From: Endomicrobium sp.
Lineage (GTDB): Bacteria > Elusimicrobiota > Endomicrobiia > Endomicrobiales > Endomicrobiaceae
DNA: 9,175 nucleotides
Reading direction: 5' to 3'
NCBI GenBank assembly: GCA_031278115.1
Contig: JAITKZ010000076.1
Coordinates: 1 to 9,175, forward strand
The stretch's first letter is position 1; the number at the start of each line of letters is the position of its first letter. Shown one piece after another: positions 1,559-9,175 of this stretch. The notes under the pieces were generated by a model. It had not been told where the DNA came from. It made no database searches and was given only the letters and a program-made list of their open reading frames with translations. The position numbers were made by a program, and so were the translations under genes.

Positions 1559-2035
1559 TTAGATAGTTCTATTGTTTAATTGCTTCTCTTTTATATATGT
1601 TGTTTTTTCATAAAAATCTTTGGGGAGAATATCAAATTTAAAATTTGCACCTATATTACAGTAAAATCCTCTTTGAATATCAAGGTCAGTGACAATAGTG
1701 TTTAGGTTTGCGTAAACTCCTAAATTTTTAGTAATGTCATAGATTATTCCTAAGCCGAATATAACAGTGAATAGATCATTTTCTAAACCTTTAATATGCG
1801 TGTCTTGCAAGCCATTTTTTAATTTTGCTGTAACACTCCCAGTCCTTCCATAAAGAAATAAATTTGCCTTTAATTCTGCCTGCCATCTAAATTTTGATTC
1901 AATGCCATTGTTTATTCGCAATCCAAATAATGTTTCAGCCATATTATAAGAATTACTAAATACGTTCAAATCTGCAGCATTAGCTCCTTTTTCAATAAAA
2001 TCATCTATATGAACATATGTAAAAAAGACTAACAA
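1559..2035 (-). pseudogene. Autotransporter fragment 4: C-terminal half of the beta-barrel
   Basis: About 158 residues of alternating polar/hydrophobic strands, including FTYVHIDDFIEKGANAAD, FGLRIN, WQAELKANLFLYG and GFYCNIGANFKF, as in the last strands of autotransporter barrels. The piece follows fragment 3 through the T6 tract at 2021-2026, where LCVKPFVSLF in one frame continues as TYVHIDDF in the other. Barrels of this kind normally end in a terminal aromatic residue. Here GANFKF is followed by 23 more residues, rich in lysine and asparagine, which may be an eroded or altered end. Confidence 0.75.
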
Positions 2036-2822
2036 AAGGTTTTACACATAACGTATTATTATAGTAATGGTTGTACGCGAGCTCCGCAGCAGCATTAACA
2101 TTATAACCTACAAATTCTGCTCCAGTTTTTCTTTTTAAATATTTTATGTTTCTTGCAGAAGTGTATTTATCTCTACCACCAATAAGAAGAACTCTTGTCT
2201 CCAAATTATTATCAAAAAAATATGAACCATAGCAGCCGACATTATATCCATTTATATCAACTTTGTCGTCACTCTGACTGGAATTACAATCAACAGAGCC
2301 AACAGTTATACCAAAAACATGAGCATCTTCTTTTAATGTGTCAAAACCTGCTTGAAAACCTTTTTGAGATGATTTAAAATCGCCCTGAGAATTAGTGTCG
2401 CCTTTACATAAATTATTTGCGCTGTACCAATGATCCCATATATTTCTCTTGCTTAATGCATCATCATTTGAGAAATAACTCCTTTCAAGTCTTGATAAAA
2501 TATTATTTCTTACGGCGTTTAATGCGGGAACTGTAATTACATTGGCGTAAATACATCCTGAAAGATCATTCAAAGCGGCTTTTATGTTTACAATATTATC
2601 CTTATAGTGCGGATTCATTTTATCTATCGCGTCAATTATAAAAAATAAATCTCCTAGTGCACCTCCATAATCACTATCCAAAGCAAAAGCCACACTACGT
2701 TCATTGTCTGATAAACCATCAATACTGCTTAATTGATCAACTTGAAGCGTCAAATTAACTTCATGCCATGAATATTGATCTCCGTCATTGCCATAATCAA
2801 TAGCTGGCTGAATGAACTCTAG
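2001..2822 (-). pseudogene. Autotransporter fragment 3: passenger-barrel junction and first half of the barrel
   Basis: The frame opens after a TGA at 2825-2823. It encodes PAIDYGNDGDQYSWHEVN, then LSDNERSVAFALDS, then a helical stretch with LNDLSGCIYANVITV. This matches the conserved autotransporter pattern of NQ..VA.ALD, LL..L, and ALN.LSGE.YAN before the barrel. The motif GFQAGFDTLKEDAHVFGITVG is the typical first barrel strands (G.QAG.D.L.....G...G). A TTG codon at 2753 is not a convincing start, and the true reading enters from fragment 2. It ends at TGA 2003-2001 after the frameshift in the T6 tract. Confidence 0.78.
2021..2026 (-). other. T6 homopolymer at the third autotransporter frameshift
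   Basis: On the minus strand CTT TTT TAC in frame 3 and TTT TTT ACA in frame 4 share this run of six T. Removing one T joins VSLF directly to TYVHIDDF and restores the barrel. Homopolymers of this kind are common sites of one-base slippage, by replication, transcription or sequencing. Confidence 0.6.
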
Positions 2823-3057
2823 TCATAGAACTGCTTTCAGAATTAGTATTGTCAAAACTGATATTACCATTGCCGCCAGTACTACTATTTGTTGCCACAA
2901 TTATATTGTATGTTACACTTCCAGAATAAACACCTGAAAATAAAGCTTTAATCTTGCTGCCACCCATTTCTGCCCTATTGTCAACAATTATCTTGTCTGA
3001 AAACTTATTTTCCAAATTTATGTCGTAACATATAGAAGCTGAGGAAATTAAATGGCT
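2797..3057 (-). pseudogene. Autotransporter fragment 2: end of passenger / linker
   Basis: The frame is open from just after a TAA at 3060-3058 and encodes ISSASICYDINLENKFSDK, then NRAEMGG, a serine- and asparagine-rich linker (NSSTGGNGNISFDNTNSESS), and stops at TGA 2799-2797. It continues fragment 1 (ending GGTSLIKAI) and leads into fragment 3 (starting PAIDYGND). Its composition fits the last turns of a passenger before an autotransporter barrel. The TTG at 3015 lies inside the conserved stretch, so it is not the native start. Confidence 0.65.
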
Positions 3058-3764
3058 TTAATAAGCGAAGTACCTCCAGATAGAAATATTGCACCACCTA
3101 ATCTGCTGGCTTTATTATTAACAAAATATCCTCCGTCATTTAAACTAACATCATTTGAATATACTGCTCCTCCCAAAGATGCTTCATTGCTTTCTGCCAC
3201 AACACAAGAATTAAAAATTACACTGCCTGAAGAATAAACAGCTCCTCCAGTTCCGCTTAAAGCGATATTTTTCTTAAATACTATATTGCCCATAAAAGTT
3301 AGAGTCCATGAAGATAAAAACACGGCTCCGCCGGCACCTTTGCTGGCAGTATTTTGCATAAAGGACGCATTCCCATTTAACGTGAAATTCCTTCCGGGAA
3401 CGCAAATTGCAGTACCTCCTTTAAAAGAACTTTCTTTATACATACCGCCTTTTAAAACTAAACCGTCTATAGTTAAAGATGTATTCAATAAATTTTCAGG
3501 AAGAGAAAAAAAGTTATTGTTTTTGTTTGCAGTAAGAGTTCTTATTATATTGGAATTGTTGGTAGAAAGTTTTTCAGCTGACTGAAGAGGAGCTGATGTT
3601 GACAGAAAAAAATTACCACAGAAAATACCTGGCTCAGCACTAAGAGCTTCCCAATTAGCAGGATTATCTACATCTGCCTGTGTTTTAAAATTTACAGCGT
3701 ACAGAAACGCTGTAATGTAAAAGAAAAAGCAAATAATAGATACTATTACTTCTAACTTTTTCAT
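3048..3764 (-). pseudogene. Autotransporter fragment 1: signal peptide and Pmp-type repeat passenger
   Basis: Starts at ATG 3764 (a TTG at 3767 is the less likely alternative). Lysines then a long hydrophobic run (VIVSIICFFFYITAFLYA) form a signal peptide with a plausible cut after LYA near residue 23. Four GGA repeats follow (numbering from the TTG): GGAVF at 146, GGAVY at 174, GGAVY at 199, GGAIF at 224. FxxN motifs stand near them: FMQN 136, FKKN 164, FVNN 215. This is the hallmark of chlamydial polymorphic membrane proteins and related beta-helix passengers. It ends early at TAA 3050-3048, where the frame shifts into fragment 2. No ribosome binding site is visible. A truncated, unanchored product could be secreted only as far as the periplasm. 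Confidence 0.78.
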
Positions 3765-3832
3765 CAAATAGAATTTTATATAATACTTTAAGATTTGTAA
3801 AATAGAATAGAAAACTTAAATTGCCTTAATGG

Positions 3833-4723: not shown

Positions 4724-7138
4724 CTACTTTATTACTATAGTAACTATTTTATTTTTAATATATATAAACTTAGCTAACTGTTTATCTTTTAAATGAGCTG
4801 CTATTTTCTCATCTGAGTTTACAGCTTTCTTTACTTCGTCTTCAGACGCATCAGCAGAAATAGTTATTCTTCCTTTTAATTTTCCATTTATTTGTACCGG
4901 AAGTTCAATGGAAGATTCTTTGATCATACTTTCATCAAAAACAGGCCATGTATGAATTGAGATACATTTATTATTTCCAAGCTTTTCCCAAATTTCTTCG
5001 CATAAATGAGGAGTAATAGGAGCAAGTAGTAATATCAATGTCTTATATACTCTCAATGATACTCCGTCGTCGTTAGCATGATATTTATAGGAATATAGTG
5101 CGTTCACAAGCTCCATAATTGATGAAATCGCAGTATTAAACTGAAATTCTTTTTCAATATCAGACGTAACTTTCTTTATGGTCTTATGCATAGTCCTCAA
5201 AATATCATCTTTATCCTTTTGAGAAGCAGTAGTTATAGACTTTGTATTTACAACCTCAAAAAGACGCCACACTCTGTTTACAAATCTCCAACATCCTTCT
5301 ATTCCATCGGAAGACCAGTCAAGCTGTTTCTGAAGAGGAGCTGCAAAAAGAATAAACAGTCTTGCTGTATCAGCTCCGTATTTTGGAAGTATTTCGTCAG
5401 GACTTACAACGTTTCCTTTTGATTTTGACATTGCACTACCACCGAGAGCTACCATTCCTTGAGTTAACAAATTCGTAAATGGTTCATCGCATTTTACAAG
5501 ATCTAAGTCTCTCATAACTTTAAACCAAAAACGTGCAAATATCAAGTGCATGCAAGCGTGTTCTATACCACCGATATTCTGAATTACAGGCATCCAATAA
5601 TTTGCTTTTACACTGTCAAAAGGAGCATGGTCACTGTGTGCATCGCAATATCTTGCATAATACCAAGAAGAGTCAGCAAAAGTATCCATCGTGTCGGTTT
5701 CTCTTCTTGCGTCTTTCCCACATTTTGGGCATTTAACATTTACAAATGTCTTGCTTGTCTTTAAAGGAGACTCTCCTGCTCCTGTGAATTCTACGTCTTC
5801 AGGAAGTAAAACTGGCAGCTCTTTTTCAGCAACAGGAACAATACCACAGTAATCACAATGAATCATTGGTATAGGAGCACCCCAATATCTCTGTCTTGAA
5901 ACTAACCAGTCTTTAAGTTTAAAATTTACAGTCTTTTTCCCAAATCCCTGTTTTTCAATCCAGCTTGAAACAGCATTAAAAGCATCAGTAGATTTAACTC
6001 CAGAAAACTCCCCGGAATTTACAAGAATACCTTCATCTTCATAAGCATGTTTGCTTACGTCAGAATTATTGCCTTTTATTACTTCTATTACAGGAACGTC
6101 AAATTTTTTAGCGAACTCCCAATCTCTTTGGTCGTGAGCAGGTACAGCCATAATAGCGCCTGTGCCATATCCTGTTAAAACATAATCTGCTGCAAAAATA
6201 GGAATCTCTTTTCTTGTAGCAGGATTTAAGACATTTATGCCTTCCAGCCTTATTCCTGTTTTTTCTTTGCTTGATGCCCTTTCTATATTTGATTTTCTGC
6301 CGCTTGCAAGAATATACTGGGCAACTTGTTCATAATTTTTAATTTTAGATTTCAGTTTATTGATTATTTCGTGTTCGGGAGCTACAACCATAAAAGTTAC
6401 GCCAAAGATTGTATCAGGACGCGTAGTAAATATTTTTAAATTTTTATCAGCTCCTGAGATTTTAAAGTCCACTTCGGCTCCGTAAGATCTGCCTATCCAA
6501 TTTTTCTGCATTGATAAAACCTGCTCCGGCCAGCCACCAAGTTGTTTGTGTCCTTCCAAAAGCTCATCTGCATAATCTGTGATTTTTATAAACCATTGTT
6601 CCAAATCTCTATGCTCGGTATGGCTGTCACATCTCCAACACACACCGTTTGAAACTTGTTCGTTTGCAAGAACTGTTTGACATGACGGACACCAATTAAC
6701 ATTAGCGCTCTTTCTAAACACTAAACCTTTTTCCCACATCTTTATAAAGAACCACTGAGTCCATTTATAATATTTAGGATCGCATGTTGCGGTTTCTCTG
6801 GTCCAGTCGTAGGAAAATCCTAAAGCTTTCAACTGTTCTCTCATACGGTTGATATTTTGTTTAGTCCATTTTGCAGGGTGTATTTTATTTTTAATTGCCG
6901 CATTTTCAGCAGGAAGACCAAAAGCGTCCCAGCCTGCTGTATATAAAACATTTTCACCCTTCATTCTGTGAAAACGAGCGCAAACATCTCCTATGCTATA
7001 ATTACGGACATGCCCCATGTGCAGATTGCCTGAAGGATAAGGAAGCATTTCCAAACAATAATATTTTTCTTTTTTAGAGTCTTCTTTAGTCTCAAATATT
7101 TTGCTTTCAGACCACTTTTTTTGCCACTTTTTTTCCAC
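4724..7138 (-). CDS. leuS: Leucyl-tRNA synthetase
   Basis: Class I synthetase that joins leucine to tRNA-Leu in the cytoplasm. Key parts, counted from GTG 7138: HMGH at 40-43 (HIGH motif, after LEMLPYPSG), a Cys4 zinc knuckle (WCPSC then CWRC), the CP1 editing domain with TTRPDTIFG and GYGTGAIMAVPAHDQRD, a second cysteine pair (VKCPKC), and AMSKSKGN with K572 (KMSKS loop). Length 804 is that of typical bacterial forms. The start is odd. Upstream GTG 7162 has a good ribosome binding site, but its third codon is TAA (7156-7154). After that stop, codons for YNHLEV lead straight into EKKWQKKW, which is the normal LeuRS N-terminus. So an ancestral start at 7162 seems to have been interrupted, and translation probably restarts at GTG 7138, which has no clear binding site of its own. 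The gene is essential and the rest is intact. Confidence 0.97.
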   Translation of the reverse strand: MEKKWQKKWSESKIFETKEDSKKEKYYCLEMLPYPSGNLHMGHVRNYSIGDVCARFHRMKGENVLYTAGWDAFGLPAENAAIKNKIHPAKWTKQNINRMREQLKALGFSYDWTRETATCDPKYYKWTQWFFIKMWEKGLVFRKSANVNWCPSCQTVLANEQVSNGVCWRCDSHTEHRDLEQWFIKITDYADELLEGHKQLGGWPEQVLSMQKNWIGRSYGAEVDFKISGADKNLKIFTTRPDTIFGVTFMVVAPEHEIINKLKSKIKNYEQVAQYILASGRKSNIERASSKEKTGIRLEGINVLNPATRKEIPIFAADYVLTGYGTGAIMAVPAHDQRDWEFAKKFDVPVIEVIKGNNSDVSKHAYEDEGILVNSGEFSGVKSTDAFNAVSSWIEKQGFGKKTVNFKLKDWLVSRQRYWGAPIPMIHCDYCGIVPVAEKELPVLLPEDVEFTGAGESPLKTSKTFVNVKCPKCGKDARRETDTMDTFADSSWYYARYCDAHSDHAPFDSVKANYWMPVIQNIGGIEHACMHLIFARFWFKVMRDLDLVKCDEPFTNLLTQGMVALGGSAMSKSKGNVVSPDEILPKYGADTARLFILFAAPLQKQLDWSSDGIEGCWRFVNRVWRLFEVVNTKSITTASQKDKDDILRTMHKTIKKVTSDIEKEFQFNTAISSIMELVNALYSYKYHANDDGVSLRVYKTLILLLAPITPHLCEEIWEKLGNNKCISIHTWPVFDESMIKESSIELPVQINGKLKGRITISADASEDEVKKAVNSDEKIAAHLKDKQLAKFIYIKNKIVTIVIK

Positions 7139-7153
7139 TTCTAAATGATTATA

Positions 7154-7162
7154 TTATGTCAC
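7154..7162 (-). other. Two-codon reading frame (GTG ACA TAA) at the ancestral leuS start
   Basis: GTG at 7162 stands six bases after the Shine-Dalgarno AAAGGGG, then ACA, then TAA. The frame is that of leuS, and the codons between this TAA and GTG 7138 (TAT AAT CAT TTA GAA) still match the usual YNxxEVEKKW start of LeuRS. It is either a nonsense mutation in codon 3 (one base from AAA, CAA or GAA) or a minimal upstream frame that works by restart. Confidence 0.6.
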
Positions 7163-7168
7163 GTTTTT

Positions 7169-7175
7169 CCCCTTT
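7169..7175 (-). promoter_or_regulatory. Ribosome binding site for the ancestral leuS start
   Basis: On the minus strand AAAGGGG, overlapping the tlyA stop by two bases, with six bases to GTG 7162. It is too far (over 30 bases) from GTG 7138 to serve that codon directly, which is why the intended start is inferred to be 7162. Confidence 0.6.
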
Positions 7176-7911
7176 ACTTTTCTAGCAAAACAAAATGTTC
7201 TAAATTGCCTTTAGGTCCTTTAAGTCCTGAGTCAGCTTCAGAAATTATTTTAAAGCCTAAACTTAAAGCAAAATTTTTAATTTTACTTATAGCTTTTTGC
7301 CTCAACTTTTCATCTCTTACAACGCCTTTCTTTATTTCCGAAGGTTCAAGTTCAAATTGAGGTTTTATCACAGCTAAACCCAAACCATTTTCACAAATGG
7401 TTTTATATACCATTGGCAAAATCTTATCAAGCGAAATAAAAGAAACATCTATAGTCGCAAAATCTATCTTATCTTTTAATAGATCACCGTCAAAATATCT
7501 AAAATTGACGTTTTCTATATTTATTACTCTTTTATCATTTCTTAATTTATAATGAAGCTGCCCAGAACCAACATCAATAGAATAAACTTTAATAGCTCCT
7601 TTTTGAAGCATACAATCTGTAAAACCCCCTGTTGAGGCCCCTATATCAAGACAAACATATCCTTTAACATCAATATTTAAAACTCTCAAAGCCGACTCTA
7701 ATTTTAGTCCGCCTCTGGAAACATAAGGACTTATATTTTTTATTTCAATTACATCTTCATCTCCGACCAATAGACTCGGTTTGTACTGAACTTGATTATT
7801 TACAAAAACACTACCGCCCATTATAAAGGCTTGGGCTTTGGTTCTTGTTTCCACAAAGTCTTTTTCAAACACTAAAATATCTAAACGTTTCTTCTTCTTA
7901 ATTTTTTCCAT
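7174..7911 (-). CDS. tlyA: TlyA-family rRNA 2'-O-methyltransferase
   Basis: TlyA proteins methylate the 2'-OH of cytidines in 16S and/or 23S rRNA using S-adenosylmethionine. From ATG 7911 (245 residues): an N-terminal S4 RNA-binding domain, from KKRLDILVFEKDFVETRTKA at about 7 to the 50s; the linker YVSRGGLKLE at 63-72; and a FtsJ-like Rossmann methyltransferase domain with SAM loop DIGASTGGFTDC at 89-100. The later motifs IDVSFISL and VIKPQFE carry the family's catalytic lysine. TTG 7917 is an alternative start two codons upstream. The gene overlaps the end of dxs by 14 bases, so translation is probably coupled. A role as haemolysin, after which the family was named, should not be assumed. 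The dxs-tlyA linkage is common in bacteria. Confidence 0.93.
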   Translation of the reverse strand: MEKIKKKKRLDILVFEKDFVETRTKAQAFIMGGSVFVNNQVQYKPSLLVGDEDVIEIKNISPYVSRGGLKLESALRVLNIDVKGYVCLDIGASTGGFTDCMLQKGAIKVYSIDVGSGQLHYKLRNDKRVINIENVNFRYFDGDLLKDKIDFATIDVSFISLDKILPMVYKTICENGLGLAVIKPQFELEPSEIKKGVVRDEKLRQKAISKIKNFALSLGFKIISEADSGLKGPKGNLEHFVLLEK

Positions 7912-9175
7912 CTGCAAACATCTTTAAAGCTTTGTTGGCTGCTTCTTCAGGTGTAAAACCGTACTTCTTTCTTAGTACTTTTACATTCCCATGCTCTACA
8001 AATTTATCTGGAAGCCCTATACATTCAACTTCAGCTCCTGTACCAAATAACACATTCTTTACGCTTTCGCCAAAACCTCCAATTAAAGAATTTTCTTCAA
8101 TCGTAACAAATTTCTTAGTTTTTGAAAGCGCCTCTTTTATTATGTCAACATCCAAAGGCTTTAAAAACCTCATGTTTATTACAAAAGCATTTATATTTTC
8201 CTTTTCTAGCAGTTGGGCAGCTTTTAAACACGTATCTACGTGGTTTCCTATAGCAAGAAAGCAAATATCGTCACCCTCTTTTAGAACAGCTCCCTTTCCG
8301 ATTTTTAAAACACATGGAGACTTATCAAGTTTAACCCCTATACCGGACCCTCTAGGATAACGTATAGCGCAAGGCTTATTAGAGTTTAATGCAGTTTTTA
8401 ACATGTGCTGCAATTCATTCTCGTCGGCAGGAGACATAATAATTAAATTAGGTATATAATTCAAATAAGACAAATCAAAAGCTCCGTGATGAGTTCCCCC
8501 GTCTTCACCAACGAGACCAGCTCTGTCCAAGGCAAAAGTAACTGGAAGATTCTGCAAAGCCACATCGTGTATAATGTTATCTATCGCTCTTTGCATAAAT
8601 GTTGAGTAAATAGCACAAACAGGTTTCATGCCGTCTGCTGCCATAGCGGCAGCGAAAGTAATGGCATGCTCTTCAGCAATACCTACATCAAAATATCTGT
8701 TAGGAAATTGTTTAGCAAATTTATCAAGCCCAGTTCCCTCCGGCATTGCAGCAGTTATAGCAACTATTTTGTTATCAGAATGAGCAAGTTTTATAAGAGT
8801 ATCTGAAAAAACTTTCGTATATGTAACTGCATTGCTTTTTACCGTTTCGCCACTTTTTATGTCAAACTTGCCTACTCCGTGAAATTTTATCGGTTCATTT
8901 TCAGCGGGAATATATCCCTTACCTTTTTTTGTAATAACATGCAATAAAACAGGTCCCTCTATGTCTTTAATATTTTCAAGAATAACTGTTAAATTATTGA
9001 TGTCGTGTCCTTGCACAGGACCAATATACGTAAATCCCATTTCTTCAAAAAGCATACCTGGAAAAAGTATTACTTTAGCTCTTTTTATAAACTTTCTAAA
9101 AGGCAAACCAAAACCATGGAATCTACTTACAGTTTTCATCACCTTTTCTTCAACTTTTCTTGCCATACCCAAAGT
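7898..9175 (-). CDS. dxs: 1-deoxy-D-xylulose-5-phosphate synthase, C-terminal two thirds (continues past the right edge)
   Basis: Thiamine-diphosphate enzyme that condenses pyruvate and glyceraldehyde 3-phosphate, the first step of the non-mevalonate (MEP) isoprenoid pathway. The frame is open from the edge for 425 codons plus the stop. About 200 N-terminal residues, with the main diphosphate-binding motif, lie outside. Visible motifs: YIGPVQGHD near 9005-9030, KKGKGYIPAE, then the pyrimidine-binding domain with DVGIAEEHAITFAA (the Glu of EEH activates the cofactor; around 8670), FALDRAGLVGEDGGTHHGAF, IRYPRG, and the C-terminal transketolase domain with EENSLIGGFGESV. All are as expected for Dxs. 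Internal ATG and TTG codons near the edge are not starts. It heads the visible gene cluster and overlaps tlyA. Confidence 0.97.
   Translation of the reverse strand, partial: TLGMARKVEEKVMKTVSRFHGFGLPFRKFIKRAKVILFPGMLFEEMGFTYIGPVQGHDINNLTVILENIKDIEGPVLLHVITKKGKGYIPAENEPIKFHGVGKFDIKSGETVKSNAVTYTKVFSDTLIKLAHSDNKIVAITAAMPEGTGLDKFAKQFPNRYFDVGIAEEHAITFAAAMAADGMKPVCAIYSTFMQRAIDNIIHDVALQNLPVTFALDRAGLVGEDGGTHHGAFDLSYLNYIPNLIIMSPADENELQHMLKTALNSNKPCAIRYPRGSGIGVKLDKSPCVLKIGKGAVLKEGDDICFLAIGNHVDTCLKAAQLLEKENINAFVINMRFLKPLDVDIIKEALSKTKKFVTIEENSLIGGFGESVKNVLFGTGAEVECIGLPDKFVEHGNVKVLRKKYGFTPEEAANKALKMFADGKN

Follow-up and report, generated by a model that had tools for sequence, protein, structure and literature searches.

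An early nonsense codon in an otherwise normal leuS gene of an Endomicrobiellum-type contig, and how leucyl-tRNA synthetase might still be made

lacI of Escherichia coli is the textbook gene in which translation restarts behind an early nonsense codon. Termination followed by reinitiation in bacteria is given a reach of more than 40 nt in a passage of PMC5972666, where an SD-like (Shine-Dalgarno-like) sequence before the second start is said to be required. In Buchnera and Blochmannia, slippage at poly(A) tracts rescues genes that look broken, according to PMC5009743. The nearest solved relatives of the enzyme treated here, leucyl-tRNA synthetase (LeuRS), are the ordinary bacterial enzymes of PDB entries 1h3n, 3zgz and 5ah5.

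The window (the whole stretch of 9,175 nucleotides of Endomicrobium sp. DNA that was analysed, contig JAITKZ010000076.1) contains a leuS gene on the minus strand with a TAA at codon 3. The contig is of the Endomicrobiellum type, symbionts of the termite gut; the nearest relatives (loci L089 and L090) are 93% identical in amino acid sequence, and among relatives with a name the best are Candidatus Endomicrobiellum porotermitis (L001, 88%) and an Endomicrobium sp. (L002, 86%). The features of the start region are listed in Table 1, and every base of the layout described in an earlier note on this DNA lies at its coordinate when read on the minus strand. The stop codon of the tlyA-like gene (TAA, 7176-7174) precedes leuS so closely that the Shine-Dalgarno stretch of leuS overlaps the last tlyA codon. 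Codon 2 is ACA (7159-7157), the second GTG is followed by GAA AAA and is separated from the TAA by 15 bases, and none of the codons listed between the TAA and the tyrosine codon is a start codon.

Table 1. Features of the leuS start region and its surroundings, in window coordinates
Feature	Coordinates	Strand	Remarks
tlyA-like gene (S4 domain and FtsJ methyltransferase), 5′ of leuS	7174..7917	-	ORF; Pfam PF01728, PF01479
AAAGGGG, Shine-Dalgarno-like	7169..7175	-	6 bases 5′ of the first GTG; same place in L089, L090
First GTG, inherited leuS start codon	7160..7162	-	GTG in L089, L090; ATG in L091
TAA, leuS codon 3, nonsense change	7154..7156	-	GAA in L089, L090, L091
Codons 4-8, TAT AAT CAT TTA GAA (YNHLE), in frame behind the stop	7139..7153	-	
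Second GTG, codon 9, earliest possible in-frame start codon past the TAA	7136..7138	-	
Remainder of leuS, 804 open codons to TAG	4724..7138	-	catalytic, editing and anticodon-binding domains

When 41 genomes of the genus were searched, leuS was present and its start could be read in 40; the remaining genome (G040) gave only weaker matches, to other synthetases. All 40 starts have a sense codon before the conserved tyrosine (GAG in 10, GAA in 8, GAT in 7, GAC in 4, AGT in 4, AAA in 3, AAT in 2, GGT in 1 and AAC in 1) and are open from the start codon through to the tyrosine, which marks the TAA as an evidently derived nonsense change that is private to this contig. The gene begins GTG ACA GAA TAT AAT CAT in L089 and L090 and ATG ACA GAA TAT AAT CAT in L091, and over the ten codons from the first GTG through the codon past the second GTG, L089 differs from the window at codon 3 only. 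If the ancestor read GAA, a single G-to-T change would have produced the TAA. Codon 9 is GTG also in L089, L090, L091 and L082, and is another codon in L081 and L092-L095. The nonsense change that the earlier note had suspected at codon 3 is thus borne out by the relatives, which also carry the YNHLEV-like residues whose lack the note had named as grounds for abandoning its reading. Its description of the start as damaged does not hold, since L089 and L090 start with GTG at this position too, so that the GTG start is inherited.

Two further readings of these bases were set aside. A frameshift around the stop was ruled out by the bases, the other two frames also being shut within a few codons, and a change of the genetic code was rejected because TAA also terminates dxs and tlyA in this window. 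The second copy question is touched by one genome of the genus (G033), which has a partial second leuS piece of 355 residues with 81% identity (G033:C137:3396-4460) in addition to a full leuS on another contig, and is perhaps a mixed bin. Weak class I synthetase-like matches with 23-26% identity and internal stops (G001:C20, G002:C26, G007:C16, G020:C1, G029:C86 and G042:C1) are perhaps alignments that overrun the start of another synthetase gene.

Codons 4-8, behind the stop, encode a conserved tyrosine and the residues with which the first helix of LeuRS begins. The tyrosine just after codon 3 is present in all 120 homologues listed (of 7996), none of which starts past it; of 80 bacterial loci from a wider set, 78 have it as well and the other two have histidine. 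The earlier note's recognition of the in-frame segment YNHLEVEKKWQ as genuine LeuRS homology was therefore correct, and chance resemblance is ruled out by the tyrosine of the homologues together with the codon match to L089. In the structure modelled for P0002, an intact relative (39 sequences, mean pLDDT 79.5), residues 1-10 have a mean pLDDT of 82 and residues 6-20 form a helix, so that translation from codon 9 is predicted to cut into an ordered element and leave a shortened first helix; the model gives no contact for the tyrosine. A narrow literature search, which is weak evidence of absence, found nothing on bacterial LeuRS shortened at the N-terminus.

leuS is otherwise intact, as the earlier note had said: 804 codons are open in one frame, with matches to PF00133, PF13603 and PF08264, the motif HMGH at 40 and MSKSK at 570. 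The domains (catalytic, editing and anticodon-binding) and the HMGH and MSKS motifs of a bacterial LeuRS gene are all found, and in these the remaining 804 residues resemble the solved enzymes; the piece that is missing from a complete gene is an N-terminus with the conserved tyrosine translated from a normal start, because of the TAA at codon 3. There is no indel relative to L089-L091. The dN/dS of the window leuS by the NG86 method is 0.12 against L089, 0.09 against L090 and 0.15 against L091. Parsimony counts that treat the window, L089, L090 and L091 as a star of four close sequences assign to the window 26 nonsynonymous and 49 synonymous private changes (dN/dS about 0.14; P 4e-17 under neutrality), compared with private-change dN/dS values of 0.15 for L089, 0.03 for L090 and 0.25 for L091; in the tree, the window falls in the same group as these three and is not a simple sister of L089. 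The pooled counts of the close relatives (40:88) do not differ from those of the window (26:49; Fisher p 0.64). At positions at least 97% conserved among 114 homologues, the window departs four times (K217R, Y521N, Y534F and T564A), as compared with one departure in L089, two in L090, four in L091, two in L092 and five in L081. There are some changes at conserved positions and no excess of them, and the loss of constraint that characterizes a pseudogene was not found in the coding sequence. By these counts leuS has been under constraint for most of its branch; since constraint is measured over the whole branch, it does not date the stop, and a very recent death of the gene may fit.

The explanation that we favour would begin with a G-to-T change that turned leuS codon 3 from GAA to TAA in the lineage of the contig, in a gene that is otherwise normal, constrained and of single-copy type. 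If the change is real, LeuRS would still be made, though in smaller amount, by either or both of two leaky routes. By the first, ribosomes would load at the strong Shine-Dalgarno sequence, translate GTG-ACA and stop, and a fraction would restart 15 bases on at codon 9, yielding an enzyme of 804 residues without MTEYNHLE. By the second, a fraction would read through the UAA and yield the full enzyme of 812 residues. A derived nonsense codon together with LeuRS from restart, readthrough or both has, as the whole explanation, an even chance of being right, and we infer with about the same balance of confidence that the TAA is carried by a living population in which restart or readthrough supplies LeuRS. 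A stronger form is unlikely, namely that LeuRS comes only through the leak, whether from a GTG at codon 9 that has no Shine-Dalgarno sequence and costs the tyrosine or from steady UAA readthrough, so that the efficiency of termination sets the supply.

Ribosomes may restart at the second GTG. This in-frame codon lies 15 bases past the stop, within a limit of about 40 nt and inside the scanning reach given in the passage of PMC5972666; the SD-like sequence that the same passage requires before a second start was not found in leuS. Scored against an assumed generic 16S tail, the duplex is -7.8 kcal/mol at the first GTG and +0.7 kcal/mol at best at the second. On the same scale, the ATG of the ftsB-like gene in this contig (+0.4) has no Shine-Dalgarno sequence either, so its lack does not rule a start out in this contig, and for two TTG starts in the ORF finder's list the values are -0.9 and -0.4. 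The product begun at codon 9 would miss eight residues, the conserved tyrosine among them, whereas alignments to the solved LeuRS enzymes begin at or before the tyrosine segment (Y at query position 4). The restart proposed in the earlier note is therefore sustained as to an in-frame start within reach and not as to Shine-Dalgarno pairing or retention of the tyrosine. The likeness to lacI lies in a nonsense codon near the beginning of the gene, a start codon in frame a short way behind it and a protein that is otherwise complete; unlike lacI, leuS is essential, its candidate restart codon is without Shine-Dalgarno pairing, and the piece that would be lost includes a nearly invariant residue. 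After termination, a ribosome could also move back to the first GTG.

Readthrough would preserve the tyrosine and yield a normal protein. The residue at codon 3 is variable among the 120 homologues listed (of 7996), E (52), D (45), S (6), K (4) and N (4) being the commonest, so whichever residue is inserted there should be tolerated. Readthrough of UAA is normally rare. The comparison with Buchnera and Blochmannia extends to a symbiont gene that may still yield some product in spite of a lesion, to judge from the passage of PMC5009743, and it ends there, because slippage cannot repair a nonsense codon made by substitution. A better comparison for slippage is the leuS of a distant Endomicrobia genome (L119, G027:C4:20200-23000), in which the frame changes at 20 consecutive A (about 286-305), shortly past the N-terminal segment; the frame change is either a poly(A) slippage rescue or a homopolymer assembly error.

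The foremost alternative, which is not among the explanations offered in the earlier note, is that the T is a base error or a minority variant in one assembled contig and that leuS of the organism is intact; we consider this possible at clearly less than even chance. The TAA is known from one copy of the sequence in one contig, and none of the 120 homologues listed (of 7996) is the window's own protein. Selection across the rest of leuS looks ordinary, and one isolated substitution is just how an error would look; G-to-T is a common artefact of oxidation during library preparation. Against an error, the part of dxs in the window, tlyA, lptE and ftsB align to the relative L116 with neither gaps nor stops, which shows that errors are not widespread in the contig. 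The finding in its present state is accordingly modest, one base in one contig: a nonsense codon is present in an otherwise healthy leuS, at a position where the relatives compared have an ordinary amino acid.

Decidedly less probable is that a real change has only just inactivated leuS, which would be either covered by a second leuS or in a lineage on its way out. Genes are lost from symbiont genomes of this type, the window has a broken surface-protein gene (1559-3767), and tlyA is broken in a relative (G012). Nevertheless, no full second leuS was found in the relatives, only one of the 41 genomes of the genus (G033) having a further strong match, the 355-residue piece; leuS is essential in bacteria; and its conserved sites show no excess of changes. 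The earlier note had also taken the state of leuS to fit a decay around it, a claim left weak by the neighbouring housekeeping genes, which have no frame break (part of dxs, tlyA, lptE and ftsB), with only the surface-protein gene in its favour. Of that note's interpretation as a whole, the nonsense change is upheld and the damaged start is not; the restart may occur, and the argument from surrounding decay is weak.

That GTG-ACA-TAA is a two-codon upstream frame kept as a regulatory leader to set the level of LeuRS, as the note had also suggested, is very improbable, for in spite of a strong Shine-Dalgarno sequence at the first GTG and a second GTG close downstream, none of 40 relatives has GTG-ACA-TAA, nothing in the two codons reads leucine, the window matches no Rfam family (0 hits up to E 1), and the local RNA folding at the leuS start, from single structures computed without shuffles, is not clearly different from that of L089-L091 (-12.6 kcal/mol as against -9.8, -11.8 and -10.9).

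If the preferred reading holds, with a real nonsense codon and LeuRS from restart or readthrough, the locus would be a natural test of how much of its N-terminus LeuRS can lose or, alternatively, of how leaky translation is in a reduced symbiont at a gene that cannot simply be lost.

Other features of the region deserve mention. The broken gene at 1559-3767 is of the Pmp/autotransporter surface-protein type and is spread over several frames (PF02415 followed by two PF03797 pieces that overlap). In the near relative L121 (G012:C23:19000-31000), tlyA is in two pieces with one stop; it is intact in the window. The stretch at 3-1055, which has no match in L121, L116 or L090, carries the start of a type II CRISPR Cas9 gene that continues beyond the window's edge (best E 2e-36 with PADLOC models of Cas9).
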